Origin: Haloprofundus halobius
GTDB taxonomy: Archaea; Halobacteriota; Halobacteria; Halobacteriales; Haloferacaceae
NCBI RefSeq assembly: GCF_020097835.1
Contig: NZ_CP083666.1
Span: forward strand, 1,674,001 to 1,738,000
Reading direction: 5' to 3'
DNA: 64,000 nucleotides
Shown here in pieces: positions 13,031 to 52,874 of the stretch; position 1 is the stretch's first letter, and every line of letters starts with the position of its first letter. Position numbers and translations under genes: made by a program. The notes under the pieces were generated by a model. It was not told the DNA's origin. It saw nothing but the letters and a program-made list of their open reading frames with translations, and did no database searches.

Positions 13031-13085
13031 AGCGGCACGCAGCAGTAGCGTGGTTGGGACACAGTACCAGATTGCGCGCCAGTAA

Positions 13086-16642: not shown

Positions 16643-16849
16643 TTACTGCCGGACGACGTTCGCTGCGCGAGGCCCCTTCGGTGAAGACTCGATGTCAAAC
16701 TCGACCTCAGTACCTTCCGTGAGGTCCTCGCCGCCAACGTCTTCCATATGGAAGAAGACGTCTTCGTCGTCGTCGAGATCGCCATCGTCAGTCGAAATGA
16801 AACCGTAGCCGCCTGTGTCGTTGAAGAAATCAACCTTACCGTGTGCCAT
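16643..16849 (-). CDS. Cold-shock domain protein
   Basis: The protein has 68 residues. GKVDFFNDTGGYGFISTDD and EDVFFHMEDV are the RNP1 and RNP2 motifs of the CspA fold, which binds single-stranded RNA/DNA; the C-terminus ends GPRAANVVRQ as usual. I chose the ATG at 16847-16849, the standard MAHGKVDFF start. Haloarchaea encode several such proteins. The acidic insertion LDDDED is typical of halophilic versions. Confidence 0.9.
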   Translation of the reverse strand: MAHGKVDFFNDTGGYGFISTDDGDLDDDEDVFFHMEDVGGEDLTEGTEVEFDIESSPKGPRAANVVRQ

Positions 16850-17133
16850 TGCAACCAAACAGAGGATCGAGCGAGGGTTAACCCTTCCGAGGGTCGAGGT
16901 ACCACGACTCCTCATACTACATTCGCAGGCTCATTATCTCGGCTGGTTCGTCGTAACAGGATGTGAAATCAAAATTGGTGTATCACTCAATACACAGGCT
17001 TGTCCTCTTGGCCGATTCATGGTAGCTGGACTTGGAAGCAAAGCTTGGAGATCGCTCAGTACAGCACACACACATAAACAGCGCAATTATTGAGGTAGTA
17101 ATATAAATCCGATTTATAACAGAGAGAAGGTCG

Positions 17134-17313
17134 ATGGCAGAGAGTCCAGAAGAGGAATCTAAAAACGAGCATAAGCAGATACTAATCGAATGTACTGAAT
17201 GTCCATTCTCCAAAGTTGTCGATGGCGATAGCGATAAAATGTCTGTCGAGGTGCTGATCGAACACGGCGAAGAAACAGGCCATAGGGTCATACCTAAAAC
17301 AATCGAGGAGTAA
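17134..17313 (+). CDS. Short haloarchaeal CxxC protein
   Basis: The protein has 59 residues: an N-terminal acidic tail, ILIECTECPFSKVV with one CxxC at residues 19-22, then SVEVLIEHGEETGHRV and an IEE end. The pattern (ECxxC plus a His near the C-terminus) is widespread in haloarchaeal small proteins and could bind zinc with Cys and His. A TATA-like tataaatc at 17102-17109 lies about 28 bases before the ATG, so the transcript is probably leaderless. It is easily missed because of its length. Confidence 0.75.
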   Translation: MAESPEEESKNEHKQILIECTECPFSKVVDGDSDKMSVEVLIEHGEETGHRVIPKTIEE

Positions 17314-17632
17314 GCACGCTAGTTCTGACAGCTTATCCAGGCGTACAATCCTGAAATAAACGAGTGCTATGTGATGGATACACCCTCTATATCTCGTACG
17401 CTGCTTCTGACAAGAGCTGGGTAGGTTTCAGCGGTCGTGCTGACTGCAGTGCGGTATTTTACAGTACCTTCTATCTAATTCTACCGCAGGTCTGGTTCCA
17501 CCGCTAGAATCCCAGAGGCCTCATTTGTTGACCCGATTGACGAACGACTACCAATCAGGCCAGTAGAGAACGAGCCACACTAGATGACGGCAAGAAGCCG
17601 AACAGGCCAAACGATCAAGTCCGTACTCCCAC
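17314..17632. other. Gene-free stretch
   Basis: The sequence is AT-rich and has stops in all frames. I see no gene, RNA or clear repeat. It lies between the end of the short CxxC gene and the 3' end of the CNNM gene. Confidence 0.5.
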
Positions 17633-18964: not shown

Positions 18965-19241
18965 CGGTGCCTCCGGAAAGTACTGCCGTTCGATTGGAGT
19001 GTGTCCATAGCTATGCATCTCGTTCCAGTGACTAAAACCATCTAAAGGATTCGCGGGTGATCGACTACTGTCAGTAGTGAACTGGTCCTGTGGATTTAGA
19101 GGCCAGAGACTCTCCTCCTCATTCCGCCGACTGCCTGCGAACACGGGGCCTCGACATTCAGTAGGCAAATCAGCATCGGGTCCTGCTGAAGACAAGCTCT
19201 CTATCTCGCACTTGTGGCGCGTCATTCTGTCCGTCGAGAGG

Positions 19242-19427
19242 TCACTGATGAGAAACTGGGCGCGTGAACAACAGTAGTTTCGTGCCGCCACCGTCGTAGC
19301 TGATCGTCTCTGCGAGTTCCCAACCCTCTGCACCGAGGCGGTTGAGTTCGTCTGTTGGATCGACTGTCTCTCGCTTGGTCGATCCCTTTGGCGGATCAAG
19401 CGTCTTGTATTCCCATTGCTAGTGCAT
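19242..19427 (-). pseudogene. DUF4177 protein copy with a stop at codon 3
   Basis: The frame reads ATG CAC TAG (start 19425-19427, stop 19419-19421) and then continues open as QWEYKTLDPPKG...ELNRLGAEGWELAETISYDGGGTK to TGA 19242-19244. It is clearly paralogous to the intact gene at 21001-21207 (RWEYETLRPP, LNQLGAEGWEFVETIDYEGGGTK). No other in-frame start precedes the conserved part, so translation is probably abolished. Codons after the stop remain intact. Confidence 0.75.
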
Positions 19428-19987
19428 TTGGGTACCCACGAGCTGTTATCTGCTCTCAGATGACTCTGCTGACAGGCTGTTTTCCGTCGTGTACTGATCG
19501 AGAACGGAGCGGTGTGCTCGTACATCGTCGTCTATCACAATCATAAGTCCCAGGTAGCCCCGAGTACGAATCTCGGACGATCTGGAAATCCGTTTTCAGT
19601 ACCTCACGAAGCGTCCACGTCCAACCGTGTTCGAGGTTCGAGTTCTGCGTCGGATCGGCTGCACCACCACGGTTGACGGGGTAACCATGAGGAGATCGAT
19701 GGAGCCTTGTCGCTGTCGACGGCGGTCAGCCGGCGACGCGACAGCGTTGCTACTCCCGAAGAGGCGTACCTGGTCGCTGACTACCGAAAGAACCGGCGTC
19801 GGGTGGTTGGTCGCGGGGACGGCCCGACGCACAACCAGGGCCGTCCGCGCAGCCCGTGTTACTATGTCCATGGAGTCCTCGACCACCACCAGAGGCGACT
19901 CCCGCCTCGGCGCGGCGTCGCAAGCCGTAGGCACACCATTCAGCAAGCAGACGCCTCCAGACAAGCGCCAAGCGGAGCTGTAACGCT
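19428..19987. other. Region without a convincing gene
   Basis: Bases 19428-19600 have no open frame. From 19627 (GTG) to 19983 a plus-strand frame of 118 codons is open (Arg/Thr-rich, ending PFSKQTPPDKRQAEL), and overlapping frames on both strands are open too. Its basic composition is unlike other proteins here. It is more GC-rich than the rest of the element and might be a decayed insertion. I do not assign a product. Confidence 0.35.
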
Positions 19988-21004
19988 TTAGCGTTGTGAT
20001 TCGCGGAGGATCAGCGGCTCGATGGCAAGTGTCCGTTTCGCTATAGTGACGATGCGAAGGACGTACGAGACGAACAGCATGAATGGAACGAGCGTCACCG
20101 CAAACGCACCGCCCACGACGAGGATGATGTGATCGAGACCGAGTGTGCTTCCCGGGAACGTCCCCGCATCGACGATTCCGACCATGATACCCGCAACGGC
20201 CAATGCCGGGACTGCAGCATAGAGAATCATCTGAGACAAGTCGATGAGTGCCCACTGGAAGTACAACGTCTTGATGTGTTCGCGCGCCGGACCAAACAGA
20301 GACAGCGCTGTTTTGAGATCGTCAAGCAAGCCGCGTTCTTCCTCATCGAGACTCTCTTCGTATTCGTTCGTAAGACGTTCAACTTGGAAGATTTTCCAAC
20401 TATAGTTGAAATTTAGTGCAGCGAATAACACATCGAACGAGCCGAACTGCGCATCCTCAAGTTGGTCACGGACCTTGTCAGCGTTCCCAGTGACGCTTTC
20501 AGCGAATTCATCGACCTCTTCTCGGAGGTTCTCGTCATCATTCTTGTCAATAGACTCTCGAAGAGCTGTAGTCCGTTGTGCCGTAATTCCGATGATCTGC
20601 CGGAGGAATTCGGATGGATCGGCAGGACTCGGAGATCCGATTAATTCTTCAGTATAATCCCGGAAATCCATCGAACTGGCCATACGCTCGCGTTGATCGC
20701 CGAGCGGGCCGTTCTCCTGGGAGAGGACGAGCTGACCGATCGTGACGACGAGTGTCGTTCCAGTCACGATGACCGTGATCATCGTCGAGAACATCGTGTC
20801 GATCATGTCGCCGGACTCGATTTGCCGTGAAAACGGTGGATCGAGGACAGCGACGGCGATGATGAATGCGACGAACACGACACTGGTCAGGATGCTGGAG
20901 ACGAGAAGGCGGTTCGCGCGTAGCAGCAACCAGATTTTAATCCGACTCTCGCCCGAGCGCTCACGCATCGTGTTGGCCGTACTGATGTCGGTCTCGTCAG
21001 TCAT
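19988..21004 (-). CDS. Haloarchaeal membrane protein of unknown function
   Basis: The protein has 338 residues. It has two N-terminal membrane spans (about 31-55 and 78-98), a long cytoplasmic helical domain (about 105-235) and two C-terminal spans (about 245-270 and 285-312). The layout is loosely like DUF2254 proteins or bestrophin-like channels, but I see no diagnostic motif. The start ATG (21002-21004) overlaps the TGA of the upstream DUF4177 gene, so the two are translationally coupled. Confidence 0.75.
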   Translation of the reverse strand: MTDETDISTANTMRERSGESRIKIWLLLRANRLLVSSILTSVVFVAFIIAVAVLDPPFSRQIESGDMIDTMFSTMITVIVTGTTLVVTIGQLVLSQENGPLGDQRERMASSMDFRDYTEELIGSPSPADPSEFLRQIIGITAQRTTALRESIDKNDDENLREEVDEFAESVTGNADKVRDQLEDAQFGSFDVLFAALNFNYSWKIFQVERLTNEYEESLDEEERGLLDDLKTALSLFGPAREHIKTLYFQWALIDLSQMILYAAVPALAVAGIMVGIVDAGTFPGSTLGLDHIILVVGGAFAVTLVPFMLFVSYVLRIVTIAKRTLAIEPLILRESQR

Positions 21005-21207
21005 ACTGGCTCACTCGATTGGGCAGGTCGCTTGAAAACGAGGTACTTGGTGCCGCCTCCCTCGTAGTCGATCGTCTCCACAAACTCCCAGCCCTCTGCA
21101 CCGAGTTGATTCAACTCTGCTTTCGGATCCTCTGCTTCTTTTTGGGACTCATCACGTGGTGGGCGAAGCGTCTCGTACTCCCAGCGGGTCGCCTCTGATT
21201 CGGACAT
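21001..21207 (-). CDS. DUF4177 family protein
   Basis: The protein has 68 residues: RWEYETLRPPRD at the start, LNQLGAEGWEFVETIDYEGG, then LVFKRP. This is the complete beta-alpha-beta DUF4177 domain. No role is known. It is coupled by an ATGA overlap to the membrane protein downstream, and a broken copy lies at 19242-19427 after that gene. It starts at ATG 21205-21207. Confidence 0.8.
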   Translation of the reverse strand: MSESEATRWEYETLRPPRDESQKEAEDPKAELNQLGAEGWEFVETIDYEGGGTKYLVFKRPAQSSEPV

Positions 21208-21280
21208 CACTACTAGTAGGTACTGCAGCCCTCTATATCCCGTTCCACTACCGAGATGGTACATTATACGGAGAACGTAT

Positions 21281-22000
21281 TTATCGGTCCGTCTCTTTCC
21301 AGTCGCCCGGGTCCCCTTCACGGAATTCACCCTTGGCATGGCGCTCGCGGGGCCAGAAGGTGACGCCCAGCAGTACGACGTAGAATACACCCACAACGGC
21401 AACCACAGCAATTCCAGGTATACGGGCGATTCCAGCGGTTGTCAGCCAGTCTTGGCGCGGCGCGAACGCTGTAATCCTGAAGACCCACGCGACCAAGAGG
21501 ACACTGAGCAGAGCGAGGTACACACGCCGGAGCCGGTTTGCGAGTGCTTCGTATACCGAGACTTTCAGCGTCGGCCTGCGATAGTCCCTGCTTAGTTCCG
21601 CTCGCCAATCATGACTTTCAGTGCCTTGGGACGGATCGAGGGCGTTTGCGAACAGGTTCTCTTGGATGACTCGAGCACGAGAGCGAAAGACATCGTAGTC
21701 CCGGTACCGCCGTGCTTCGATGCCCAGAAATATGGTGACGACAACAATCCCGATTAGCAAGATATAGTGTGGGTTATCAGCACTCGAAAACGCCCACGTC
21801 AAGATTGCTGCCATAAGCGTCACCGCCCACGTCGTCGTCTGGTCGAGGCGCTGTCGCCACGTCCCTACTCGGTCTATCTCTCCGCGATAGGCGTGGGCCA
21901 TCACCGACCCGAGTCCCGTACTATCGTCAACCATTTCGCGGCCTATCTCCCGTTGGTCTGGTGCTGCTGGGTCGAACTCGTCGCTACTCGAATCGGTCAT
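21281..22000 (-). CDS. DUF2270 membrane protein
   Basis: The protein has 239 residues. LGSVMAHAYRGEIDRVGTWRQRLDQTTTWAV and ARRYRDYDVFRSRARVIQENLFANAL are the conserved DUF2270 blocks. The four predicted membrane spans come in pairs at about 55-95 and 160-225. The role is unknown; homologues occur throughout haloarchaea. It lies 73 bases upstream of the DUF4177 gene on the same strand and may share a transcript with it. Confidence 0.85.
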   Translation of the reverse strand: MTDSSSDEFDPAAPDQREIGREMVDDSTGLGSVMAHAYRGEIDRVGTWRQRLDQTTTWAVTLMAAILTWAFSSADNPHYILLIGIVVVTIFLGIEARRYRDYDVFRSRARVIQENLFANALDPSQGTESHDWRAELSRDYRRPTLKVSVYEALANRLRRVYLALLSVLLVAWVFRITAFAPRQDWLTTAGIARIPGIAVVAVVGVFYVVLLGVTFWPRERHAKGEFREGDPGDWKETDR

Positions 22001-22063
22001 AGAGGAGAGACCTCTCCTCGCTGCATAAGCAATTATGATGACGGCGTGAACTGAAACGAATGC

Positions 22064-23173
22064 TTAGCCCATTCGTTCGAGTGCGTCCCTCCTGTCTTCG
22101 ACCGGGGCTTGATCGTATTTGACCGTCGTTCTAGTTGTTTTGTGTCGAAGCTGCGTTGCAGCTGCTTTCAAATCCTCTTCACGCGTCATATACGTCCCCA
22201 CAGAATGGCGAATCGAATACCACGTCAAATCGCGGGTTTCATACTCAATCCCTGCCTCATCACAGAGGTTCGCTAGCAAGGGATTCAACGACTGGCTGCT
22301 GTACGGATTACCATACCGCGTCAACCACAAAGCATCGGTATCCGCATACTTCCCACGCAATTCTCGTTCCTCGAGCCATCGCTCAAGCGCCATCACAGTC
22401 CGACTCTGCAGGCTGGTTTCCCAATTTTCCGTGTTCTTCGCGGAGTCTTCTTTCGGAATTCGAAGAACCTGATTTGTCGTATCAACCCAAGACACGCGAG
22501 CACGTCCAACTTCGATTGGACGCAATCCTGCATCCAACGCGGACCAGATGATTGAGGGGATTTTCCAACTGTTCGCATCCTGCCAGTCAGCGGCAGTAAC
22601 ATCACGAATTGGCTTTCCGAATCGTTGGGCTAGATACGCGTTCCAGTCCCTTCGGTCCTTCTGGTTCACCGAATAGTAATTCGGTACAGAACCGAATTCT
22701 AACGCTGCTTCACGGATACGGCTGCGCTCATCCTTCCGCAGGTAATCACGGGGTTGATGTGTGGAGTTACTACTGAATCGGTATGGTGGTTCCCACGTTC
22801 GCTCACTGTTAGTGCGGTCGGCTTGCCAATTGAAAAACGAGAGTAAGGCTTTGACGCAGGATGCTTTGTAGGTCTCAGAATAGTCTGTGTCTTTCAGGAG
22901 TTCGACCCAGGCATCTGCGTGAGCGGTAGTGATGTTTTCCGTGTAGTGTCCTTCTGCGTCCCAGACGAGCCGATAGAATTTGTCGAGACGGTATGCTCGT
23001 GACTGTACGGTGCTGGGAGCGTATCCTTCTCCGCGTTTCGGGTCTTTTCCACGGGTGAGCATCCACTCGATAAGTTGACGTCGATGTTCGGTATAGGACG
23101 TGAGCTGTCGTTTGTCGAGTTGAGCCTCAGACTTACCTGTGGTAAGTGGGATTCCTTCGTGTTTTTCGGGCAT
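22064..23173 (-). CDS. Tyrosine-recombinase integrase of the element
   Basis: The protein has 369 residues. An N-terminal core-binding (SAM-like) domain spans about 20-135 and a catalytic domain about 150-365. The catalytic set is visible: first Arg in AGLRPIEVGR, Arg322 in WYSIRHSVG (Tyr319 replaces the usual His of HxxR), His344 in QLRHK, and nucleophile Tyr353 in VKYDQ. It should catalyse integration and excision at the tRNA-Gly 3' part. It lies 127 bases from the tRNA and points away from it. The fragment at 8733-8825 is from a close relative. Confidence 0.92.
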   Translation of the reverse strand: MPEKHEGIPLTTGKSEAQLDKRQLTSYTEHRRQLIEWMLTRGKDPKRGEGYAPSTVQSRAYRLDKFYRLVWDAEGHYTENITTAHADAWVELLKDTDYSETYKASCVKALLSFFNWQADRTNSERTWEPPYRFSSNSTHQPRDYLRKDERSRIREAALEFGSVPNYYSVNQKDRRDWNAYLAQRFGKPIRDVTAADWQDANSWKIPSIIWSALDAGLRPIEVGRARVSWVDTTNQVLRIPKEDSAKNTENWETSLQSRTVMALERWLEERELRGKYADTDALWLTRYGNPYSSQSLNPLLANLCDEAGIEYETRDLTWYSIRHSVGTYMTREEDLKAAATQLRHKTTRTTVKYDQAPVEDRRDALERMG

Positions 23174-23299
23174 GGTGATCGGTCTCGCTGTTGTTCAGGG
23201 TTATTGACCACGGTCCAAACCCGAGTGTTTGGGCTTCGTCACAATAACCAGGGACCCCGGAAATACCAGAAGGACGTATGAGGCGGTTAGAGGCTTGTA

Positions 23300-23341
23300 T
23301 GCGCCGGCCGGGATTTGAACCCGGGCCATGAGCTTGGAAGG
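23300..23341 (-). repeat. Right attachment site within tRNA-Gly
   Basis: These 42 bases are repeated at 9016-9057 with one mismatch. They start in the anticodon loop and end at the tRNA 3' base. Confidence 0.9.
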
Positions 23342-42040: not shown

Positions 42041-42056
42041 TTTTGGCAAGCCTAAA
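42041..42056. promoter_or_regulatory. Degenerate iron-box-like palindrome TTTTGG-CAAG-CCTAAA
   Basis: It differs by one base from the four perfect TTTAGG-N4-CCTAAA copies in this cluster. It overlaps the TATA-like ctaaaaaa (42052-42059), 27 bases before the ATG of the GT2 gene, so binding would block that promoter. Confidence 0.45.
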
Positions 42057-42082
42057 AAACCATGGGTCCGTTCGTTCGGACG

Positions 42083-42913
42083 ATGAGTGACGCGAGCGAA
42101 CGGACGGACAGCGAGCGAGCGGATGACCGAGAACGCGACGCCGGCGAGAACGATCGCCTCGGAGAGAGCGACGGAATCGACGTGATCGAGGGAGTCGGCG
42201 ACGTCGAGCCCGGAGAACGCGACGCCACCGACCGGCAACGCCCCTACACCTTCGACGACGTGAGCGTCGTGATGGGGACGTACAACGAGGAGGCGGCCAT
42301 CGAGTCGGTGCTCTCGGACATCGACGAGGTGACCGACGGCCGCGCCGAGGTCGTCTGCGTCGACGGGTCGTCGGACCGGACACCCGAGATTGCTCGCGAA
42401 CGCGGCGCGCGGGTCATCTGTCAGCAGCCGCAGGGGTACGGCGTCGCCGTCGAGGCGGCGCTGACGGCGGCCTCGCGGCCGGTCATCGTCACGACCGACT
42501 GCGACGGCACCTACCCGATGGAACAGCTCCCCCAGTTCCTCGACGCCATCAACGACGGCTACGACGTCGTGAGCGGCGACCGACTCTACCACGGCGCGGA
42601 GGCGATGCCCGCGTTCAACCGCTTCGGCAACGCCGCGTTCGCGCTGCTGGCGAGCGCGCTGATGGGCGAACGCGTCCACGACACGACGACGGGGATGCGC
42701 GCGTACCGCCGGGAGGTCGTCGACGACATCGAGTGGACCGAGAACACGGGGCTGTCGGCCGAACTGCTCATTCGCCCGCTGATGCGCGGCTACGCCGTGA
42801 AAGAACTGCCAATCGAGTACGACGAGCGACTCGGCGAGACGAAACTCGACCCGCTCGGCGGCGGGGCCGCTATCGCGAACTCCATCGTGCGCGTCTGTCT
42901 GGAAGAGCGGTAG
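42083..42913 (+). CDS. Glycosyltransferase family 2, dolichyl-phosphate sugar synthase-like
   Basis: The protein has 276 residues. After an acidic tail (1-55), VVMGTYNEEAAIESVLSDI begins the GT-A fold; VVCVDGSSDRTPEI and VTTDCDGTYPMEQLP (DxD-like) follow, then DTTTGMRAYRR and the C-terminal ELPIEYDER. This resembles polyprenyl-phosphate mannosyl/glucosyl synthases used in archaeal N-glycosylation. There are no membrane spans. The start is ATG 42083, leaderless after a TATA-like box at 42052-42059 that coincides with a degenerate iron box. Confidence 0.87.
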   Translation: MSDASERTDSERADDRERDAGENDRLGESDGIDVIEGVGDVEPGERDATDRQRPYTFDDVSVVMGTYNEEAAIESVLSDIDEVTDGRAEVVCVDGSSDRTPEIARERGARVICQQPQGYGVAVEAALTAASRPVIVTTDCDGTYPMEQLPQFLDAINDGYDVVSGDRLYHGAEAMPAFNRFGNAAFALLASALMGERVHDTTTGMRAYRREVVDDIEWTENTGLSAELLIRPLMRGYAVKELPIEYDERLGETKLDPLGGGAAIANSIVRVCLEER

Positions 42914-42935: not shown

Positions 42936-44597
42936 TCAGAGCCGCGAATCGAGGTCGTCGGCGACGCGCAGCGCGAGCGCGGCGATGGTGAGCGTCGGGT
43001 TCATCGCGCCGCTCGTGACGAACGCGCTGGAGGACGGAATCCAGAGGTTCGAGAGGTCGTGGGTCCGGAGTTGGGGGTCGACGACGCTCGACTCGGGGTC
43101 GGTCCCCATCCGGGTCGTCCCCATGTGGTGGTACGCCGGGCCGGTGTTGTCCGGACCGACCGTCCACTCGATGTCGACGCCCAGCGACTCCAGAATCGTC
43201 CGTTGAATCTCGTTGGCGCGGGCGAGCGTCCGCTTCGTTCGGTCGTCGATACGCCAGTAAATCGCCGGGACGGGGTTCCCGTGGTCGTCGGTCGTCTCGG
43301 GGTCCAGCGTGATTCGGTTCTCCGCGCGCGGCAGTTGCCCGACGAGCGCCCCCATCGCGACGTGGTTGCCGTAGCCCTCGCGGAGCTGCGGCAACAGGTC
43401 GTCGCCCCACGTCTCCGCCGAGAGCGCCGTCTCGACCGGCGAGGGGCCGGCGTAGTTGAGAAACTCCAGTTTGAGCGGGCCGAGGTCGTCGTCGCTCGGC
43501 GGAACCGACGACTCGGTCCCCTCCGCGCCCGCGCCGGGGTCGTCGTAGAACTGGTGGCTCTCGGAGGTGATGAAGCCGACGTGGTTCTGTCGCGTCCGCC
43601 GCTCGAGCGTCCCGCCCATCCCCGCGAACAGGTGCTCCATGAAGTGACGGCCGACGAGTCCCGAGGAGTTGGCGAGGCCGTCGGGGTACTGCTCCGACTC
43701 GGAGAGCAGCAGCAGCCGCGGATTTTCGACGCCGCCGCAGGCGAGCGCGAACGCCCGCGCCTCCTGTCGGTGTTCCTCGCCGTCGGACGTCGCGTAGACG
43801 GCCGCCTCGACGCGCTCGCCCGCGCTGTCGTGTTCGAGTCGCTGGACCGGCACCCGGTCGAGGACGCGCGCGCCGGCTTCCTCGGCTTTCTCGACGTGGC
43901 TCTCGGCGGTGTACTTCGCGCCGGAGGGACAGACCGGTTTGCACGTCCCGTAGCCGACGCAGGCCGAGCGGTCGTCGTACGGTTCGGAGTTGCGCGCGTT
44001 CGGCACCGCGTGGGTCGTCACACCGACGCGCTCGCAGGCCTCCGCGAACAGCGAGTCGCTGTGGGACGGCTCGAAGGCGGGGAGCGGGTGCGGCTCCTCC
44101 CGTGGCGGCGCGAACGGGTTGTCCGACGCGCCGGCGACGCCGAGTGCGGACTCGGCCTCGGCGTAGTACGGCCGGAGGTCGCCGTAGGCGATCGGCCAGT
44201 CGTCGGCGACGCCGTCGCGACTCCGGCGCTCGAAGTCCGACTCGTGGAGACGCATCACCATCCCCTGCCAGTGGAGCGTCGAGCCGCCGACCCCCTTCAC
44301 CCGGGCGACGTTCAGCGGGTAGAACAGCTCTCCGGGCGTCGTGAACTCGTCTCTCGGGCCGCTCATCTCCCACACCTCGTCGTCGCCGTGAATCGGTCGA
44401 ATCGCCCGCTCCATCCGTTCGAGGCGGTCGGCCGGGTCGAACCGCGGCCCGGCTTCGAGGACGACCACGTCGTGGCCGCGGTCGGCGAGGCGGTGGGCGA
44501 CGAGTCCCCCCGCGGGTCCCGCGCCGACGACGCAGACGTCGACCCGGTCGCTCGGCGTCCGGTCCTGCTCACTTTCTTCTGTTTCGTCCGCGCTCAC
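42936..44597 (-). CDS. GMC-family oxidoreductase, gluconate 2-dehydrogenase alpha-type
   Basis: The protein has 553 residues. VVGAGPAGGLVA (about 19-30) binds FAD; GVGGSTLHWQGMVMR is the GMC signature; SACVGYGTCKPVCPSGAKY is the Cys-rich block also found in membrane sugar dehydrogenases with a 3Fe-4S-like site; YHHMGTTRMG holds the catalytic His near the C-terminus. It should oxidise a sugar or sugar acid, feeding electrons to the respiratory chain with the small subunit encoded upstream. It starts at GTG 44595-44597, overlapping the previous stop (GTGA). No cytochrome c subunit is present. An iron box precedes the pair. Confidence 0.86.
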   Translation of the reverse strand: MSADETEESEQDRTPSDRVDVCVVGAGPAGGLVAHRLADRGHDVVVLEAGPRFDPADRLERMERAIRPIHGDDEVWEMSGPRDEFTTPGELFYPLNVARVKGVGGSTLHWQGMVMRLHESDFERRSRDGVADDWPIAYGDLRPYYAEAESALGVAGASDNPFAPPREEPHPLPAFEPSHSDSLFAEACERVGVTTHAVPNARNSEPYDDRSACVGYGTCKPVCPSGAKYTAESHVEKAEEAGARVLDRVPVQRLEHDSAGERVEAAVYATSDGEEHRQEARAFALACGGVENPRLLLLSESEQYPDGLANSSGLVGRHFMEHLFAGMGGTLERRTRQNHVGFITSESHQFYDDPGAGAEGTESSVPPSDDDLGPLKLEFLNYAGPSPVETALSAETWGDDLLPQLREGYGNHVAMGALVGQLPRAENRITLDPETTDDHGNPVPAIYWRIDDRTKRTLARANEIQRTILESLGVDIEWTVGPDNTGPAYHHMGTTRMGTDPESSVVDPQLRTHDLSNLWIPSSSAFVTSGAMNPTLTIAALALRVADDLDSRL

Positions 44598-45121
44598 CGC
44601 TCCGGCCCCCGTCTGTAGCTCTCCGTGCCGCCACCGTGTCCCTGCGGGTTGTCGATGCCGACGAGTTCGCCGCCGGTCGGCGAGGTGTAGAGCGCGTACT
44701 GCAGTTCGTTGACGATGTAGTATCGAACTCGCTCGGCGTCGGTGCCGTCGGGGTCGGGGTCGGCCGTCTGCGTGCCCAGTTGCCTGAGCAGTTGGTCGCG
44801 CTCCTCGCGCGCCAGTTCGGGAACCGGCGCGTCGAACCAGTCGACGGCGTACGCCTCGACGAGCGCCGCCGTCTCGGCGACACCGCGCTCGTACTCGGGG
44901 CGCTCCGAGGCGCGGCCGACGACGTACGTCTCGACGAACTCGCCGACGTTCTCGACCGCCGAGGGGTAGACCGCCTCCGCGAGGGCGGTGAGCGTCTCGC
45001 CCGTCGGACGCTCCGACGACTCGCCGTTCTCGTCGAGGCGGTCCCACGTGAGCGCACCCGCGCTCCCGGCGACGACGGTTCCCGTCAGCGCCGCCAGCGC
45101 GTCCCGTCTCGTCAGCTCCAT
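44594..45121 (-). CDS. Gluconate 2-dehydrogenase subunit 3 family protein, Tat-exported
   Basis: The protein has 175 residues. MELTRRDALAALTGTVVAGS is a twin-arginine signal, so the partner complex is likely exported folded with this subunit. VYPSAVENVGEFVETYVVG and the later PEYERGVAETAALVEAY match gluconate 2-dehydrogenase subunit 3 (the gamma subunit that carries the Tat signal). It overlaps the GMC start by four bases. The iron-box palindrome at 45131-45146 is nine bases upstream of its ATG. Confidence 0.85.
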   Translation of the reverse strand: MELTRRDALAALTGTVVAGSAGALTWDRLDENGESSERPTGETLTALAEAVYPSAVENVGEFVETYVVGRASERPEYERGVAETAALVEAYAVDWFDAPVPELAREERDQLLRQLGTQTADPDPDGTDAERVRYYIVNELQYALYTSPTGGELVGIDNPQGHGGGTESYRRGPER

Positions 45122-45130: not shown

Positions 45131-45146
45131 TTTAGGTGGACCTAAA
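45131..45146. promoter_or_regulatory. Iron-box-like palindrome TTTAGG-TGGA-CCTAAA
   Basis: A perfect 6-bp inverted repeat with a 4-base spacer lies nine bases upstream of the small-subunit ATG. It resembles the TTAGG...CCTAA elements linked to DtxR-type iron regulators (Idr/SirR) in haloarchaea. Confidence 0.75.
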
Positions 45147-45299: not shown

Positions 45300-47459
45300 C
45301 TACCCCACCGCCGTCGCGTTCGTCGCCACGGAGACGCCGTCGAGGTAGTCGCCGTCGGGGCCGACCCACGTCCCCTCGCGGCCGCACTCGGTCTGGAGGC
45401 GACAGACTCGCGTCTCCGGCGGCCACAACGCCCGAATCTCGCCGCCTTCGCGATCGACCGTGAGTTCCTGTCGGTACGTAACCGACTCGCCCGCGGGACC
45501 ACCGAAGGTGACGACGAGGTCGACTTCGCTCGCGTTCGACGGGAGCGGCACCGAGGGACCGTCGGTGTCGCCACCTGCGCGCTCCAGATTCGTCACCCGC
45601 GCGCCGTCGGGCGTCACCGTCCACTCGACCGGGACGTCGTCGGCCCCGTCGCCGGCGTCGAACGCTGCGACCGCGTAACGGGCGTACCCGCGTTCGGTCT
45701 CGACGCGGACGCTGACGCTCGTGCTTCCAGCGGGCACCCCGACGGTCGTCTCGGCGTCGACGCGGTCGCCGCGGAGCAGTTCGAGGCGCTGCAGTTCGGG
45801 GTCGACCGGTTCGACCGCACCGGTCCACGCGCCGCGGTAGGTGAACCGGTAGGGCGTCCGATTCCCGACGGCGTCGAGCGTTTCGAAATCCCTGTCGGGC
45901 CCCTCGTCGAGCGCGTACACCGCGTCGCCGTCGAAGCCGGGGTCGTTCCGGAGAGACTGGAACGGGTGGTTCTGCCAGTCGCCGTAGGGGTCTGGGACGA
46001 AGACGAGCGCGCGGTCGAACTCGACTCGCTCGAACGGTTCGTACGTCGTCGCGAGGGTGTCGGTCCGGAGGCGGTTCTCCTCGTAGGGGTCGGCGACGAC
46101 CGACGCCTCCGCGGCGACGACGACGGGCGCGGAGACGAGGAGCAGTCCGACGACGGCGAGACGTGCGACGCGCCGGTTCCGGCGTTCGGCGAGCGCGCCG
46201 TACACCGCGTCGGCGACGCCGACGACCCCTGCGGCGGCGAAGACGCCGAACGGGACGAGCAGGTCGAAGTGGTAGTACGGGCCGAGCAACTCGAAGAGGC
46301 CGTTCGCCAGCCCGTTGTGGGTCCCCCAGAAGTACGCGTTGCCGACGGCGACTGAGACGCCGACGCCGAGCAGTAGCGCTCGAACGCCGTGGCTCGAACG
46401 GTCGGCCGGGCCCGGCGCGGCCGGAGCGCCCGCGCGCCGCCAACGCACGGCGGTGACGCCGACGCCGACGGCCGCGAGAAGCGTTCCGACGCTTCCGGCG
46501 GCGACCCAGCCGGTGAACAGCATCGTCAGGGCTTCGACGGTGACCGTCGCCGCCAGTTCCGGGGTGTAGTCGACGACGTAGCCGAGAATCTCGCGCTCGC
46601 CGAAGCCGAGACCGTCGCGAGGGGCGAACACCTCGTAGGGGAACAGCAGCGGGTCGCCGGTCGTGACGGCGTTGTAGCCGAGCGTCAGCGCGACGAACGC
46701 GAGCCCGGGAACGGCGACGGCGGCGGTCCGCACCAGCGTCCCGCGGAGGCGGTCGGTGCCGAACGCGCGGAGCAGCACGGCCAGCGAGTGGACGATAAAC
46801 GGCGCGGCGAACAGCACCGCCGTGAACTGCCGGGCGAAGAACGCCGCGCCGACGGCGACGCCCGCGACGAGCGCCCAGCGACTGCTCTCCTCTCTCACCG
46901 CGCGAACGTAGGCGACGGCGAAACAGAGGTTGAGAAACGTCGTCGGCGCGTAGGCGAGGTACACCGAGGACGTGAAGAGAAACAGCGGCGACGCGAGGAC
47001 GAACGCGCCGGCGAGGAGGCCGACCCGTTCGTCGAACGCCATCCGCCCGAGGACGGCGACGAGCGCGACGCTCCCGGCGGCGACGACGACGAGCGCCGCG
47101 GCGTATCCGCCGGTGAGCGCCCGCGAGAGCGCGAAGACGGCGGGCACCGCCGGCGAGTACTTGCCGTACATCCGGAGCGTCTCGCCGCCGTCGTCGACGA
47201 CGAAGAACCACGGTCTGACGACTTCCGCGAGCGCGCCCGGCCGGAGGAACAGGTGGCCCTCCAACAGCATCGCCGCCTGCGTGAGGTAGACCGCCTCGTC
47301 GTCGTTGACCGAGTAGTACGCGAACAGGTCGGTGACGAGCCAACCGACGACGACGGCCGCGAGAAGCGAGAGCCCGAGGACGCCGACGGCGAAGCCGCGA
47401 CGCCGGAGAGAGGACTCGTCGGAATCGGACATCGAGAAGCGCCGACTCGGCCACGACAT
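45300..47459 (-). CDS. Membrane glycosyltransferase, GT39/ArnT-like fold
   Basis: The protein has 719 residues. About ten spans occupy residues 25-470. The first loop has YYSVNDDEAVYLTQAAMLLEG with the DE pair that is catalytic in GT39/ArnT-type transferases, and MYGKYSPAVPAVFALSRAL follows. The C-terminal 230 residues are a predicted external beta-rich domain. Such proteins move sugars from lipid carriers to acceptors. The ATG (47457-47459) overlaps the ATPase stop (TGATG), so it is co-translated with the iron transporter; an ATG at 47432 is also possible. It is unusual as the last gene of an iron-transport operon. Confidence 0.82.
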   Translation of the reverse strand: MSWPSRRFSMSDSDESSLRRRGFAVGVLGLSLLAAVVVGWLVTDLFAYYSVNDDEAVYLTQAAMLLEGHLFLRPGALAEVVRPWFFVVDDGGETLRMYGKYSPAVPAVFALSRALTGGYAAALVVVAAGSVALVAVLGRMAFDERVGLLAGAFVLASPLFLFTSSVYLAYAPTTFLNLCFAVAYVRAVREESSRWALVAGVAVGAAFFARQFTAVLFAAPFIVHSLAVLLRAFGTDRLRGTLVRTAAVAVPGLAFVALTLGYNAVTTGDPLLFPYEVFAPRDGLGFGEREILGYVVDYTPELAATVTVEALTMLFTGWVAAGSVGTLLAAVGVGVTAVRWRRAGAPAAPGPADRSSHGVRALLLGVGVSVAVGNAYFWGTHNGLANGLFELLGPYYHFDLLVPFGVFAAAGVVGVADAVYGALAERRNRRVARLAVVGLLLVSAPVVVAAEASVVADPYEENRLRTDTLATTYEPFERVEFDRALVFVPDPYGDWQNHPFQSLRNDPGFDGDAVYALDEGPDRDFETLDAVGNRTPYRFTYRGAWTGAVEPVDPELQRLELLRGDRVDAETTVGVPAGSTSVSVRVETERGYARYAVAAFDAGDGADDVPVEWTVTPDGARVTNLERAGGDTDGPSVPLPSNASEVDLVVTFGGPAGESVTYRQELTVDREGGEIRALWPPETRVCRLQTECGREGTWVGPDGDYLDGVSVATNATAVG

Positions 47460-48574
47460 CAGCGGTCGACGACGGTGTCGGCTCCCTCGGGGAACCACGA
47501 GAGGTCGTGCGACGCCACCAGCGAGAGGGAGACGCGCTCGCCCCGGTCGAGGTGGACGTCGTGGTTGTGCATGCAGCTAACCGTCTCGCCGGAATCGAGT
47601 TCGATTTCGTACAGCGCCGTCGGACCGAGGTAGCGCCGGGAGGCGACGACGCCGTGGCCGTCGGAGTCGGGCGTCGCTTCGAGGTCATCCGGGCGGACGA
47701 GGAGCTCTATCGCCGAACCCTCGTACTCCGGCGCGAGGCCGTGAATCCGCTCGCGCGAGACGTCGCCGATGGCCGTCGAGACGGCGTCGCGGCCGACGGT
47801 GCCCGCGAGGAAGCTCGCGTGACCGAGGAAGCCGGCGACGAAGCGCGACTCCGGATGCTGAAACACCTGTTCGGGGCGGCCGATCTGTTCGATTCGGCCG
47901 GCGTTGACGACGGCGACGCGGTCGGAGATCGACATCGCCTCCTCCTGGTCGTGCGTGACCGAGACGGCGGTGACGCCCGCCTCCTTGAGGATGCGGCGGA
48001 CCTCCTCGCGCATCCGGACGCGGAGGTCGACGTCGAGATTCGAGAACGGCTCGTCGAGCAGCAGCACGTCGGGCTCGGGCGCGAGCGACCGCGCGAGGGC
48101 GACGCGCTGCTGCTGCCCGCCGGAGAGCTCGTCGGGGTAGGAGTCGCGCTGGGCGTCGAGGTCGACGAGCGCCAGCAGTTCGTCGACCCGCGCCTCGCGG
48201 TCGCTCTCGTCCCACTCCTTCAGTCCGAAGGCGACGTTCTCGGCCGCCGTGAGGTGCGGGAACAGCGCGAACTCCTGGAAGACGACGCCGACGTCGCGCT
48301 CCTCGGGCGAACGGAACGAACCGTTCCCGGAGACGACGTCGCCGTCGATGCGTATCTCGCCCGTGTCGGGGCGCTCCAGCCCGGCGACGAGCCTGAGCGT
48401 CGTCGTCTTCCCGCAGCCCGAGGGGCCGAGCAGCGTGAGTATCTCGCCGTCTTCGACGGTCAACGAGAGCTCCTTGATGACCGTCTCCTCGCCGAAGCGT
48501 TTGGAGACGCCGTCGAGTTCCAGCACCGATTCTGTCGAGCGCGTCGTCCTGTCGGCCATCGTGTTATCGCTCAT
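47459..48574 (-). CDS. Ferric-iron ABC transporter ATPase (FbpC-like)
   Basis: The protein has 371 residues. LLGPSGCGKTTTLRL is Walker A, LSGGQQQRVALARSL the signature and VLLLDEPFSNLD Walker B, then the His switch SVTHDQEEAM. A TOBE-type domain (about 285-365) ends the protein. The order binding protein, permease, ATPase places it in a Fe3+ (or spermidine/sulfate-like) importer; the iron-box promoter favours iron. It is translated in series with the downstream glycosyltransferase gene. Confidence 0.9.
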   Translation of the reverse strand: MSDNTMADRTTRSTESVLELDGVSKRFGEETVIKELSLTVEDGEILTLLGPSGCGKTTTLRLVAGLERPDTGEIRIDGDVVSGNGSFRSPEERDVGVVFQEFALFPHLTAAENVAFGLKEWDESDREARVDELLALVDLDAQRDSYPDELSGGQQQRVALARSLAPEPDVLLLDEPFSNLDVDLRVRMREEVRRILKEAGVTAVSVTHDQEEAMSISDRVAVVNAGRIEQIGRPEQVFQHPESRFVAGFLGHASFLAGTVGRDAVSTAIGDVSRERIHGLAPEYEGSAIELLVRPDDLEATPDSDGHGVVASRRYLGPTALYEIELDSGETVSCMHNHDVHLDRGERVSLSLVASHDLSWFPEGADTVVDR

Positions 48575-48658: not shown

Positions 48659-50335
48659 TCATTTGACATCGTACCCCTCCTGCGAGACGATGACGAGCAT
48701 CGAGAGCCCCGAGACGGCGAGGAGGATGAGCGCCGGAATCGCGGCACGACCGAAGTAGCCCTGACTGTACGCCGACCAGACGCGCGTGACGAGCGTGTCG
48801 AACCCCGTCGGCGCGAGAAACAGCGTCGCCGGCAGTTCCTTCATCGTCGTGAGGAAGACGAGCGCCATCCCGCCGAACAGCCCCGGCGCGACGAGCGGCA
48901 GCGTGACGCTCCGGAACGCCCCGCTCGGGGTGCGCCCGAGCGTCCGCGCCGCCTCCGGTAACTTGGGATCGACGCGGAGGAACGACGCCCGCAGCGACCC
49001 GACCGCCTGCGGGAGAAAGCGGACGACGTAGGCGAACACCAGCAGGTAGAGCGTCTGGTAGATGGGTCGCGCGTACTCGGTGCCGAGGTAGACGAGCGCC
49101 AGTCCGATGACGACGCCGGGGACCGCGTAGCCGACGTACGTCGCCCGCTCGGTGAGCGTCGCGACGTTTCCTTTGTGGTGGGCGGCGAGGTAAGCGACGG
49201 GGAACGCGAAGACGGCGGCGACGAGAGCCGTCGCGGCCGCGACGCCGACGGAGTTGAGGACGTACGAGATATCGAACGCCAGCGTCTCGCTGCCGACCTC
49301 GCTCGCACCCCGGACGAACCACGTGCCGAGAATCACGAGCGGGACGACGAGCGCCAACACGGAGACGCCGGTACAGAGGCCGAGCGCGGGAAGTTTCCAC
49401 CGGCCGAGGCGGACCCGGTCGGTCGCTCTCCCGCCGCCGTACACCTGTTCGTCGCCGCGGATACGCGCCTCGGCGGCTAGAATCAGAAGCGTCACCGCGA
49501 CCAGCTGCAGCGACAGCAGCGCGGCGAAGTCGCGGCCGAAGGAGTTGAACTCCACGAAGATGACGCGAGTGAAGGCGTCGAAGCGCATGATTGCGGGCGT
49601 CCCAAAATCGGAAAGGGTGTACAGCGCCACGAGCAGCGACCCGGCCGCCACCGCGGGGCGAATCTGCGGGACGGTCACGCGGCGGAACGCCTCCCAACGC
49701 GAGTGTCGGAGCGTCCGCGCTGCCTCGACGAGCGTGGTGTCCATCGACTTCAGGGCCGCTCGCGTCGTGATGTAGACGTAGGGGTAGGTGTACAGCGTGA
49801 GCACGAGCGTCGCTCCGGCGAAGCCGTACAGTCGGGGCAGCGACTCGACGCCGAGCGGCGCGAGCAACCGCTGGAGCGCCCCTCGCGGCCCGAACGCCGT
49901 GACGAACGCGAACGCGCCGATGTAGCTCGGGATGACGAGCGGCAGGGAGACGACGACGGTCCAGAAGCGCCGGAACGGCAGATCGGTCCGGACGGTCAGG
50001 TACGCCAGCGGAACGCCGACGAGAATCGACGCCGCGGTGACGGCGACGACGAGGGCGGCGCTGTTGGCGAACACTTCGAGCGTCTGCAGGCGAAGCGAGA
50101 GCGCCGCCGCCTCCGCGAGGCCGACGTCGAAGGCGAGGCGGACGAGCCAGACTAGCGGGAGCAGTACGAGCACCGCGACCGTCGCCGAGGCGAGCGAGAG
50201 GCCGAGCGGCGGGGTCGACCCCCCGAACGACGGCGTCGAGCCACCGAACAGCGAGGTCGACGCGTCGAGCCGCGAACTCGACTCGTCAACGTCGCTCGCG
50301 GTGTCGTCTGCTCCGGTAGCGTGTTCGGCGTCCAT
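48659..50335 (-). CDS. Ferric-iron ABC transporter permease (FbpB-like)
   Basis: The protein has 558 residues and about twelve membrane spans in two BPD_transp_1 halves (about 95-260 and 345-550). The EAA loops read EAARTLRHSRWEAFRRVTVPQ and EAARTLGRTPSGAFRSVTLP. This fused two-domain form is typical of FbpB/AfuB iron permeases. An acidic/Ser-rich tail (1-50) with SLFGGSTPSFGGSTPPLG repeats begins the protein. Genes on each side are 84 bases apart, so one operon is likely. Confidence 0.9.
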   Translation of the reverse strand: MDAEHATGADDTASDVDESSSRLDASTSLFGGSTPSFGGSTPPLGLSLASATVAVLVLLPLVWLVRLAFDVGLAEAAALSLRLQTLEVFANSAALVVAVTAASILVGVPLAYLTVRTDLPFRRFWTVVVSLPLVIPSYIGAFAFVTAFGPRGALQRLLAPLGVESLPRLYGFAGATLVLTLYTYPYVYITTRAALKSMDTTLVEAARTLRHSRWEAFRRVTVPQIRPAVAAGSLLVALYTLSDFGTPAIMRFDAFTRVIFVEFNSFGRDFAALLSLQLVAVTLLILAAEARIRGDEQVYGGGRATDRVRLGRWKLPALGLCTGVSVLALVVPLVILGTWFVRGASEVGSETLAFDISYVLNSVGVAAATALVAAVFAFPVAYLAAHHKGNVATLTERATYVGYAVPGVVIGLALVYLGTEYARPIYQTLYLLVFAYVVRFLPQAVGSLRASFLRVDPKLPEAARTLGRTPSGAFRSVTLPLVAPGLFGGMALVFLTTMKELPATLFLAPTGFDTLVTRVWSAYSQGYFGRAAIPALILLAVSGLSMLVIVSQEGYDVK

Positions 50336-50419: not shown

Positions 50420-51589
50420 TCAGAGCACGCCGACGTCGCGCATCAGTTCGACGGTGCCTTCGAGGTCGGACAGCTGTGTCAGGTCTAACCCCTCCGGCGG
50501 GTTCAACTCGTCGATACGCGGCAGGTCGCCGACGGGGTCGACGCCGGAGACGAGCGGGTACTCGAACGTCTCGCGGGCGAAGTAGTCCTGCGCCTCCGCC
50601 GACAGCAGGTGGCGGACGAAGTTCGACGCCAACTGCTCGTCCTCGGCGGTGTCGAGGGTGCACGCCCCGGCGACGTTGAAGATGCTCCCGGCGTCGCCGT
50701 TCGTGAACGCCGTCGAGAGCGGTGCGTCGTCGCGCCCCGCGAGGACGCGCTGGATGTAGTAGTGGTTCGCGAAGCCGACCGAGATCTCCCCGTCGGCGAT
50801 GGCCTGACAGACGAGGAACTCGTCGCTGTACTCCTGGACGCCGAGGTCCTGCATCCCCTGTAACCACTCGCGGGCGCGCTCGTCGCTCTCCAGCACGCGC
50901 ATCGCGGTGATGAACGCCTGAAACGACCCGTAGGTGGGCGCCCAGCCGACCTGGTCGGCGAACCGCTCTGTGTCGGGGAACGCGTAGATGTCGTTCGGGA
51001 TGTCGGATTCGGACCACTGGTCCGTGTTGTACGGGATCGTCCGGGCGCGACCGGAGGTGCCGGTCCAGTGGCCGTCGGGGGCGCGGAACTCCTCACGGAC
51101 GAGTTCGAGCACGTCCTCGGGGAGCGCGACCGTCAGCCCCTCCTCTGCGAGCGTGCCGAGCGAGCCGGCGTTGACCGAGTAGAACACGTCCGCGGGGCTC
51201 CCGTCTCCCTCGGTGATGATCTGGTTGACGAGCTCCGACGAGCCCGCGTATCGGACTTCCGGTTGGAAGTCGTCGTAGAGATCGTCGATGAAGCCGACGA
51301 GCTCGCCGACGAGCGCCTCGCCGCGACCGGAGTAGATGGTGAGTTCACCCGAGAGGTCCGGCATCTCCGACATCGAGGTGCCGCCGTCGATGGAACGGTC
51401 GCCGAACGGCGAGCGGCCCGACCCGATCTGACCGATGCTCTGCGAGCCGTTTCCGCTCGCGTTACCCTCTCCGCCGTTGCTTCCGCCCCCGAGGAGTCCG
51501 TTACACCCCGCGAGGCCTGCGATACCTGCCGTCGTGCCTGCTGCGAGGAGACGACGACGGCTGAGCCGTCTGGAGTCGTTTCGCGTCAT
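50420..51589 (-). CDS. Ferric-iron ABC transporter substrate-binding protein (FbpA-like lipoprotein)
   Basis: The protein has 389 residues. SRRRLLAAGTTAGIAGLAGC is a Tat signal with a lipobox Cys29, so it is probably a Tat-exported lipoprotein. A Gly/Ser/Asn linker follows. ELTIYSGRGEALVGELVGFI starts the type 2 periplasmic-binding fold, and TIPYNTDQWSESDIP and IADGEISVGFANHYYIQRV match iron-binding FbpA/FutA proteins, including a Tyr-Tyr pair near residue 270. The ATG 51587-51589 is four bases from a perfect iron box, with a TATA-like tcttatag about 27 bases upstream. Confidence 0.92.
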   Translation of the reverse strand: MTRNDSRRLSRRRLLAAGTTAGIAGLAGCNGLLGGGSNGGEGNASGNGSQSIGQIGSGRSPFGDRSIDGGTSMSEMPDLSGELTIYSGRGEALVGELVGFIDDLYDDFQPEVRYAGSSELVNQIITEGDGSPADVFYSVNAGSLGTLAEEGLTVALPEDVLELVREEFRAPDGHWTGTSGRARTIPYNTDQWSESDIPNDIYAFPDTERFADQVGWAPTYGSFQAFITAMRVLESDERAREWLQGMQDLGVQEYSDEFLVCQAIADGEISVGFANHYYIQRVLAGRDDAPLSTAFTNGDAGSIFNVAGACTLDTAEDEQLASNFVRHLLSAEAQDYFARETFEYPLVSGVDPVGDLPRIDELNPPEGLDLTQLSDLEGTVELMRDVGVL

Positions 51590-51593: not shown

Positions 51594-51609
51594 TTTAGGC
51601 ACACCTAAA
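51594..51609. promoter_or_regulatory. Iron-box-like palindrome TTTAGG-CACA-CCTAAA at the iron transporter promoter
   Basis: A perfect inverted repeat lies between the TATA-like tcttatag (51611-51618) and the ATG of the binding-protein gene. It covers the likely transcription start, where a repressor would block a leaderless promoter. Confidence 0.82.
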
Positions 51610-51637: not shown

Positions 51638-52810
51638 TCAATCGTCGCTCGGTATCGGCTGCTGGGCGGGCTCCGACGCGCCGGACGCGTCGAGCGCTCG
51701 CAGGCAGTCGAGCCACTCGCGCATCCGTTCGCCGACGAAGGTGAAGAACGCGCCGTTGTTGTACTCGCTCCAGTCTCCCTCGGCGAGTTCGTCTGCGATA
51801 GCCTCGAAGACGTCCGCGTACGTCTCGCAGTCGCCGCCGACGCCGTCGACGACTTCCCAGAGGTGTTCGTTCAGTTCGAGTCCCGGTACCTCGTTGTTGA
51901 GGTCGTCGAACGTCGGTCGCGGGGCCTTGTTGTGCTCGCAGAGCGGGCGCCCGTTGACGACGTCTTTGTCGAGCACGTCGGCGGCGCGCTTGAGGAAGAC
52001 GCCCGACCAGATGTCGTCGAAACGGCCGACCTCCCACTCGTTGTCGTCCATCGGCAGCTGGTAGAACGCCGGCACGACCTCGCGGCGGAACGCGAGGTTC
52101 ATCGAGCAGACCGTCAGATACTGGCCGCGGTCGGCGACGAAATCCTCGCCGAAGTCCTCGGCGGCGGTCCGGGTCTGCGCCTGTCCCTGGAGGTCGCCGT
52201 CCATCAGGATGCGCACCGCGTCGAGGTCCGGGACGTTCGTCCACAGTCCCTGCGAGGCGACCACGTCGTCGACGTAGCGGGTGTCGGTCTCGACCGTCTC
52301 GTCCATCGCCGCGTAGGGGTAGCCGCGGGGGTAGAGGCCGTGGTCGTCGAAGCTCTGGTAGAGGACGTTCACCCACCGCTCGTCCGAACGGACGCACTCC
52401 ATCTCGCCCTCGTAGCCGAGGTTCTCGAAGTGGCGACCGAAGAAGTCCTCGTCGGGGTGCGGGAGCGTGTCGTCGTCGATGAAGAGGCCGAACTCGAACT
52501 CGTTGGCCCACAGGTAGAGGAGGCCGAACGAAGTCTGCGCGTGGCTGGCGGCCGGAATCAGGTGCGCGTACTGTGAGAGGCCGCGCGCCTCGAACCACTC
52601 CTGACGTCGACTCCCGTCGAACACCTCGCCGGAGACGCCCTCCTCGTCGAGCATCGCGCGCATCGCCGCCGTATCACAGAAGTCCTCGGTGACGAGGACG
52701 ACGTGTAATCGGTCGAGGTCGAACCCGTGGTCGCGGGCGTTCTCGAAGTACGCCCGCATACACTCGTACTCTCGTATCGTCGGGACGATGACGCAGGTGT
52801 CGGTACGCAT
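51638..52810 (-). CDS. Reversibly glycosylated polypeptide / UDP-arabinopyranose mutase-like protein
   Basis: The protein has 390 residues. GLFIDDDTLPHPDEDF (DDD at 112-114) is the DxD metal site; YPRGYPYAAMDE aligns with the RGYPFSLRE segment of plant RGPs, where the Arg (here R162) is reversibly glycosylated; MNLAFRREVV, VGRFDDIWSGVFLK (261-274) and CEHNKAPRPTFDDL follow the RGP/alpha-1,4-glucan-protein synthase order. The enzyme may use UDP-sugars in mutase or self-glycosylation chemistry; the actual sugar is unknown. It is preceded by two iron boxes and a GGAGG Shine-Dalgarno sequence, and followed by the iron transporter operon. Confidence 0.82.
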   Translation of the reverse strand: MRTDTCVIVPTIREYECMRAYFENARDHGFDLDRLHVVLVTEDFCDTAAMRAMLDEEGVSGEVFDGSRRQEWFEARGLSQYAHLIPAASHAQTSFGLLYLWANEFEFGLFIDDDTLPHPDEDFFGRHFENLGYEGEMECVRSDERWVNVLYQSFDDHGLYPRGYPYAAMDETVETDTRYVDDVVASQGLWTNVPDLDAVRILMDGDLQGQAQTRTAAEDFGEDFVADRGQYLTVCSMNLAFRREVVPAFYQLPMDDNEWEVGRFDDIWSGVFLKRAADVLDKDVVNGRPLCEHNKAPRPTFDDLNNEVPGLELNEHLWEVVDGVGGDCETYADVFEAIADELAEGDWSEYNNGAFFTFVGERMREWLDCLRALDASGASEPAQQPIPSDD

Positions 52811-52829
52811 AGTCGTTGCTCCTCCGGTT

Positions 52830-52845
52830 TTTAGGCCGTCCTAAA
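52830..52845. promoter_or_regulatory. Iron-box-like palindrome TTTAGG-CCGT-CCTAAA
   Basis: A perfect inverted repeat, 19 bases upstream of the ATG of the RGP-like gene; GGAGG lies between it and the start. Confidence 0.75.
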
Positions 52846-52858
52846 AAGACTGTCGGTT

Positions 52859-52874
52859 TTTAGGGTCGCCTAAA
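52859..52874. promoter_or_regulatory. Second iron-box-like palindrome TTTAGG-GTCG-CCTAAA
   Basis: A perfect inverted repeat 29 bases upstream, start to start, of the first box. It is close to three helical turns away, so two regulator dimers could occupy the same face. It lies in the gap after purL. Confidence 0.75.

Follow-up and report, generated by a model that had tools for sequence, protein, structure and literature searches.

On balance, a gene of the haloarchaeon Haloprofundus halobius probably encodes a metal-dependent NDP-sugar mutase of family GT75, the family of the reversibly glycosylated polypeptides (RGPs), which belongs to a haloarchaeal clade and would head a proposed iron-repressed pathway for a furanosyl glycan. 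The gene lies in the 64-kb stretch of DNA analysed here (the window), and the 3.95-Mb genome has no other member of the RGP family. It is followed, in this order, by genes for a ferric-binding protein, a permease, an ATPase and a GT39 membrane glycosyltransferase, and further genes of the proposed pathway are found in the same window (Table 1). Among named organisms, Haloprofundus marisrubri has the closest relative (89% identity), and no family was assigned to the protein in a search of NCBIfam. The region singled out in the preliminary description of this DNA, 51638-52874, consists of the RGP open reading frame and the two iron boxes upstream of it.

Table 1 Features of the proposed iron-repressed gene set in the window (coordinates of the window, forward strand).
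Feature	Coordinates	Strand	Remarks
GT75/RGP-family protein, proposed NDP-pyranose/furanose mutase	51638..52810	(-)	390 aa; Pfam RGP, fold, residues
Proximal iron box TTTAGGCCGTCCTAAA, upstream of RGP	52830..52845	.	Exact palindrome
Distal iron box TTTAGGGTCGCCTAAA, upstream of RGP	52859..52874	.	Exact; 29 nt from proximal
FbpA/HitA-type ferric-binding lipoprotein	50420..51589	(-)	Tat motif plus lipobox; start more likely 51589 than the mechanical 51604
Iron box upstream of ferric-binding protein	51594..51609	.	Exact; exact in 106/116 loci
ABC permease, two BPD_transp_1 domains (fused)	48659..50335	(-)	Domain matches
ABC transporter ATPase	47459..48574	(-)	Family matches
GT39/PMT_2 membrane glycosyltransferase, C-terminal DUF7846	45300..47441	(-)	Start approximate
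Iron box upstream of GDH3-GMC	45131..45146	.	Exact; in 20/20 unlinked copies, ≤1 mismatch
Gluconate-2-dehydrogenase-subunit-3-like protein (GDH3)	44594..45121	(-)	Twin-arginine signal
GMC FAD-dependent sugar dehydrogenase (predicted)	42936..44573	(-)	Start approximate
Dolichyl-phosphate hexose transferase (GT2)	42062..42913	(+)	NF041391, 411 bits; true start may be further in
One-mismatch iron box TTTTGGCAAGCCTAAA, upstream of GT2	42041..42056	.	TTTTGG variant recurs before GT2 elsewhere

Elsewhere in the window, an integrative element occupies positions 9016-23341 at tRNA-Gly(tcc). It is bounded by a 42-nt direct repeat (98% identity; 9016-9057 and, at the tRNA 3' end, 23300-23341), carries an integrase gene (PF00589) at 22064-23173 and has a GC content of 0.55 compared with 0.67 in its surroundings. 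Among the genes it carries are those for DUF2270 and CNNM/CorC proteins, TrmB regulators and two transporters, one of the formate/nitrite type and one of the AI-2E family.

The RGP protein passes the threshold of its Pfam family (PF03214; 59.4 bits against a cut-off of 23.8), and the motifs DDD (residues 112-114), RGYP (162-165), GRFDDIWSG (262-270) and EHNKAP (292-297) occur in the order expected of RGPs, as first described. The homology to GT75/RGP proteins proposed in that description is confirmed by the family score, and the proposed tie to sugar-nucleotide chemistry is supported as well. Among solved structures, a search with the single sequence returned entries of MtdL as the best matches (E 1e-23, compared with 0.002 for rice UAM2), while a profile of 32 homologues reached 1e-38 for MtdL and 2e-33 for rice UAM2. 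An AlphaFold2 model built from the same 32-homologue alignment (pLDDT 85.9, pTM 0.88) aligned with MtdL at Z 36.6 (354 residues, 2.8 Å, covering residues 2-374) and with rice UAM2 at Z 26.9, and all remaining matches were generic GT-A enzymes with Z ≤14.7. The GT-A core, the lack of which had been named as a refuting outcome, is therefore present in the model, and the protein is predicted to be a GT-A fold with a GT75 core and additional C-terminal helices.

The residues that matter in MtdL are D109/110/111, R159, D195, R257, D260 and H287 (PMC9937993). These correspond to D112/113/114, R162, D195, R263, D266 and H293 in the haloarchaeal protein, all of which are invariant across the haloarchaeal clade, so the enzyme looks catalytically intact. 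Arg162, whose conservation had been named as a point to check, is kept in 32/32 aligned sequences; the loop that carries it is poorly predicted in the model (pLDDT <50). Catalytic residues common to MtdL and the active plant enzymes are likewise retained, and rice UAM2 deviates at three of the mapped positions (N at D111, T at R257 and R at H287, in MtdL numbering).

Base and sugar choice in GT75 is set by pocket positions, among them Ser86/Asp87 of MtdL and the D-S pair of the active plant enzymes (PMC9937993). The equivalent pair is S89-H90 in the haloarchaeal protein, in contrast to D-S in the active plant enzymes and S-D in MtdL, with MtdL Ser86 kept as S89 and Asp87 replaced by a His90 that is invariant in the clade; in place of the plant D-S pair and Arg there are S89-H90 and T93. 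The base-specificity residues are mixed, with Ser89 resembling the GDP enzyme, Pro10 the plant enzymes and the E42-D43 segment neither. As the pocket is unlike that of both the plant enzymes and MtdL, UDP-arabinose should not be assumed to be the substrate.

H90 and M237 stand in the places of MtdL Asp87 and Gln229, which are both essential in MtdL (PMC9937993), and these replacements could alter the reaction. They also favour an alternative reading, in which the protein is not a mutase and acts as a self-glycosylating transferase or as a glycosyltransferase on another acceptor, as does the self-glycosylation of a conserved Arg known from GT75 enzymes (PMC9937993). However, the same two positions also vary between MtdL and the active plant mutases (PMC9937993), and Asp195, Arg263, Asp266 and His293 are all retained, leaving a role other than that of a mutase improbable.

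MtdL (PDB 7xps, 7yua) and Hyg20, two bacterial GT75 GDP-L-fucose/L-galactose pyranose mutases, were described in 2023 as the sole characterised non-plant enzymes of a family in which archaeal members had already been noted (PMC9937993). In our tree, the haloarchaeal clade grouped with MtdL and was split (98/97) from rice UAM2, a planctomycete protein and the canonical RGP of Salarchaeum, although the placement of MtdL is not firm because of long branches. The sequence and fold comparisons suggest that the H. halobius protein represents a haloarchaeal GT75 clade nearer to MtdL than to plant UAM. With MtdL it shares the entire fold (25% identity), the DDD triplet, Arg162, Asp195, Arg263, Asp266 and His293, as well as Ser89 and Ser236, while it differs in having His90 for Asp87, Met237 for Gln229 and probably Pro10 for Thr13, and in its setting, which is an iron-boxed glycan module rather than the antibiotic pathways of MtdL and Hyg20. 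With plant RGP/UAM it shares the catalytic core residues, and with canonical RGPs the Met at the Gln229 position and the Pro in the PTI motif, but it is a distant relative of these proteins (59 bits to Pfam RGP versus 452 for the canonical Salarchaeum RGP) with an S-H pocket pair in place of D-S, a different gene context and a separate position in the tree. The term 'plant-type' used in the preliminary description consequently fails, as the nearest solved relative is bacterial and the pocket residues are unlike those of plant UAM, while the assignment to GT75/RGP, the GT-A fold, Arg162, the iron box and the neighbouring transporter all stand. Plant-type ancestry was rejected; a canonical RGP exists as a separate gene in one haloarchaeon.

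That haloarchaeon, Salarchaeum sp. JOR-1 (loci L032/L071), has the divergent, boxed RGP in addition to the canonical gene (452 bits to PF03214), which lacks an iron box, lies in another context and is the truly plant-like archaeal RGP. A second RGP without a box was also found on contig 38 of genome G187 (L033/L080), where it is more divergent (62% identity) and accompanies a boxed copy on contig 62. Outside the archaea, plasmid pPL62-2 of Planctomyces sp. SH-PL62 (L095) encodes a GT75 relative annotated as 'hypothetical protein', which has glycosyltransferase genes nearby and retains the DDD, Arg, Asp and His active-site residues.

The two palindromes reported upstream of the RGP gene are both exact and lie 29 nt apart from start to start, and this double box is preserved in congeners (L025, L029 and L115). 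The box, TTTAGGnnnnCCTAAA, has five matches with ≤2 mismatches in the window against 0.24 expected, and exact copies occur at 12 sites genome-wide compared with 0 for the reversed control. Near the RGP start, the box is exact in 101/120 flanking loci and within one mismatch in 117/120, against a background in which approximately 2% of random 100-bp windows from the flanking loci contain such a box. Haloferax and some Halorientalis are without an exact RGP box, but have the one-mismatch variant TTTTGGnnnnCCTAAA in the equivalent position. At the other boxed sites of H. halobius there are, among others, genes for three binding proteins of the Peripla_BP_2 family, for an ATPase and permease of the ABC type and for a class-III aminotransferase with a decarboxylase, which by their family assignments resemble genes of siderophore uptake and synthesis. 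On contig 2 of genome G000, the gene immediately behind an exact box encodes a glutamine-synthetase-like protein (Gln-synt_C; L111, 3594-4981), which is unexpected in an iron-boxed set.

Iron control in haloarchaea is attributed to DtxR-family regulators in work cited in PMC11349517, and by analogy a regulator of this family may act at the TTTAGGnnnnCCTAAA boxes. As in the haloarchaeal DtxR-family iron regulon (Idr/SirR/TroR; 'ferR' in Leyn and Rodionov 2015, cited from PMC11349517), a palindromic box lies ahead of siderophore-type uptake and biosynthesis genes. In contrast, a sugar mutase, two glycosyltransferases and a sugar dehydrogenase were not found as members in the regulon literature searched, though the gene lists of 2015 and 2024 may include some of them.

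The iron transporter previously noted beside the RGP gene was confirmed, the neighbour being an FbpA-type ferric-binding protein (216 bits to 7w3w, plus matches to HitA/FbpA) with its own exact box. Together with the permease and ATPase encoded alongside, it would form an FbpA-type ferric ABC transporter, as judged from these family matches. The RGP gene adjoins a ferric transporter in 73/74 full loci. Our guess is that HVO_1705, a predicted iron(III) binding protein of Haloferax volcanii (PMC10869688, PMC8155600), may be an orthologue of the ferric-binding neighbour. Distant homologues of this protein occur in 4/7 genomes that lack the RGP, indicating a looser tie than that among the glycan genes. 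In Halobacteriales archaeon YIM A00010 (L182), RGP, GT39 and GT2 are found together with no ferric-binding protein and with a two-mismatch box only, a layout which suggests that the glycan genes are able to stand without the transporter.

The GT39 protein has approximately 10 hydrophobic segments, and a phmmer search of solved structures with its sequence found no meaningful relative. The GT2 protein matches the NCBIfam equivalog 'dolichyl-phosphate hexose transferase' and its score for AglJ, an enzyme of N-glycosylation, is far under the cut-off; HVO_1613 of Haloferax, a Dol-P glycosyltransferase that acts outside N-glycosylation (PMC9943897), may be its orthologue. The GMC protein is closest to FAD-dependent glucose/fructose dehydrogenases (310 bits to 6a2u/8hdd and 263 bits to 7w2j) and retains the catalytic His and Asn motifs (HHMGTTRMG and NPTLT), and on this full-chain homology and these motifs it is classed as a putative FAD-dependent sugar dehydrogenase. 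It shows no signal itself, but GDH3, with which it is paired, starts with a twin-arginine motif, so that, like the known glucose/fructose dehydrogenases, it has a small Tat-borne partner subunit; unlike them, it belongs to an iron-boxed gene set.

FAD-dependent glucose/fructose dehydrogenases as a group reduce artificial ferric acceptors. The resemblance of the GMC protein to these enzymes and the iron box common to all genes of the set would fit a scheme of ferric reduction, in which electrons taken from sugar by an external FAD sugar dehydrogenase reach Fe3+, with the glycosyltransferases providing the substrate of this enzyme or anchoring it. However, FbpA-type proteins bind Fe3+ and not Fe2+, and no cytochrome subunit was seen beside the GMC gene in the loci read, and we consider this scheme very unlikely.

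The glycan genes are inherited together. The RGP is present in 53/60 genomes of the family, and GT39 and GMC were found in the same 53, as was GT2 in 52 of them, the single exception being an 80%-complete genome, while all four genes are missing from the same 7 genomes. A further 28 genomes, from other families, were selected to include both carriers and non-carriers of the RGP; the 16 with it have all four genes and the 12 without it have none. The four genes are thus all-or-none in a total of 88 haloarchaeal genomes, with one gap (the incomplete genome), although these are counts from related genomes rather than independent events, with absences spread over many genera. Joint loss could occur through a single deletion where the genes are clustered; in many genomes, GT2 and GMC are far off or on other contigs, yet all four genes are retained. 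FAD-dependent UDP-galactopyranose mutase was not found in the H. halobius genome nor in 57/60 relatives, which leaves the RGP as the sole enzyme recognised as furanose-forming in most of these genomes.

These dispersed genes also carry the box. It is located upstream of 20/20 GT2 genes that are unlinked or separately placed (8 exact, the others with one mismatch) and 20/20 unlinked GDH3-GMC genes (18 exact, the others with one mismatch), while the next-best site at these 40 genes has at least two mismatches and mostly three or four. The presence of the box on 40/40 dispersed genes is the strongest evidence for what appears to be one iron-responsive gene set. It also argues against the view that an unrelated sugar-nucleotide gene merely happens to lie ahead of an iron operon, for which the modest Pfam score and nothing else could be cited. 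The RGP gene has its own box in addition to the transporter's, the unlinked genes carry the box as well and the genes of the module are present or absent jointly, and a coincidental neighbourhood, being largely refuted by these observations, was rejected as hardly credible. The glycan side of the earlier proposal, that the gene serves a sugar-nucleotide step needed under low iron, is strengthened by the genes for GT39, the Dol-P hexose transferase and the FAD sugar dehydrogenase, which share both its inheritance and its iron box.

We infer the chemistry, step order and regulator of the pathway as follows. At plentiful iron, a DtxR-family regulator would sit on the TTTAGGnnnnCCTAAA boxes, letting go on starvation. 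The mutase, in which Arg162 would serve as the covalent nucleophile and Asp266 as the base, would then make an NDP-furanose in the cytoplasm. The GT2 enzyme would put the sugar onto dolichyl phosphate, and the GT39 enzyme would move it to an acceptor outside the cell, either secreted or at the surface, where the FAD sugar dehydrogenase (GMC with its Tat-borne GDH3) would oxidise it. The product would aid growth when iron is scarce, perhaps because it retains Fe3+ for uptake through the neighbouring FbpA-type transporter. Possible purposes include capture of Fe3+ by the oxidised glycan, ferric reduction via the sugar dehydrogenase or a change of the envelope. We regard it as doubtful, and rather unlikely, that the pathway constitutes an undescribed mode of haloarchaeal iron acquisition distinct from classical siderophores, in which an oxidised, Dol-P-derived furanosyl glycan at the surface captures or reduces Fe3+ and hands it to the FbpA-type transporter.

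The genes may instead remodel the envelope without chelation, changing a surface glycoprotein or exopolysaccharide at low iron (for adhesion, permeability or lipoprotein protection) by means of a sugar product that does not bind iron. Surface glycosylation is a common role of GT39 and Dol-P transferases, one haloarchaeal Dol-P glycosyltransferase serves exopolysaccharide (PMC9943897), and the glycan genes are co-inherited with no strict need for the transporter. However, such remodelling would leave both the adjacency to the ferric transporter and the need for an external sugar dehydrogenase unexplained, and we consider it somewhat unlikely.

Searches of the literature on RGP, glucan-protein synthase or GT75 in archaea and haloarchaea found nothing on function and nothing that connects GT75 with iron or with these genes, although the 2015 and 2024 regulon lists may already name some of the genes. 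Neither an RGP nor a glucan-protein synthase is named in the portion of the text searched of the Haloferax low-iron proteome paper (PMC11349517). Relatives of the RGP gene carry the annotation 'alpha-1 4-glucan-protein synthase'; after the present analysis, a gene so annotated can be tested, in Haloferax and other tractable organisms, as a member of a putative glycan pathway of iron starvation. This haloarchaeal GT75 clade is tied to a GT39 glycosyltransferase, a Dol-P hexose transferase and a likely FAD sugar dehydrogenase by strict co-inheritance and by the iron box common to their dispersed genes, raising the question of what role surface sugars may play in archaeal iron uptake.
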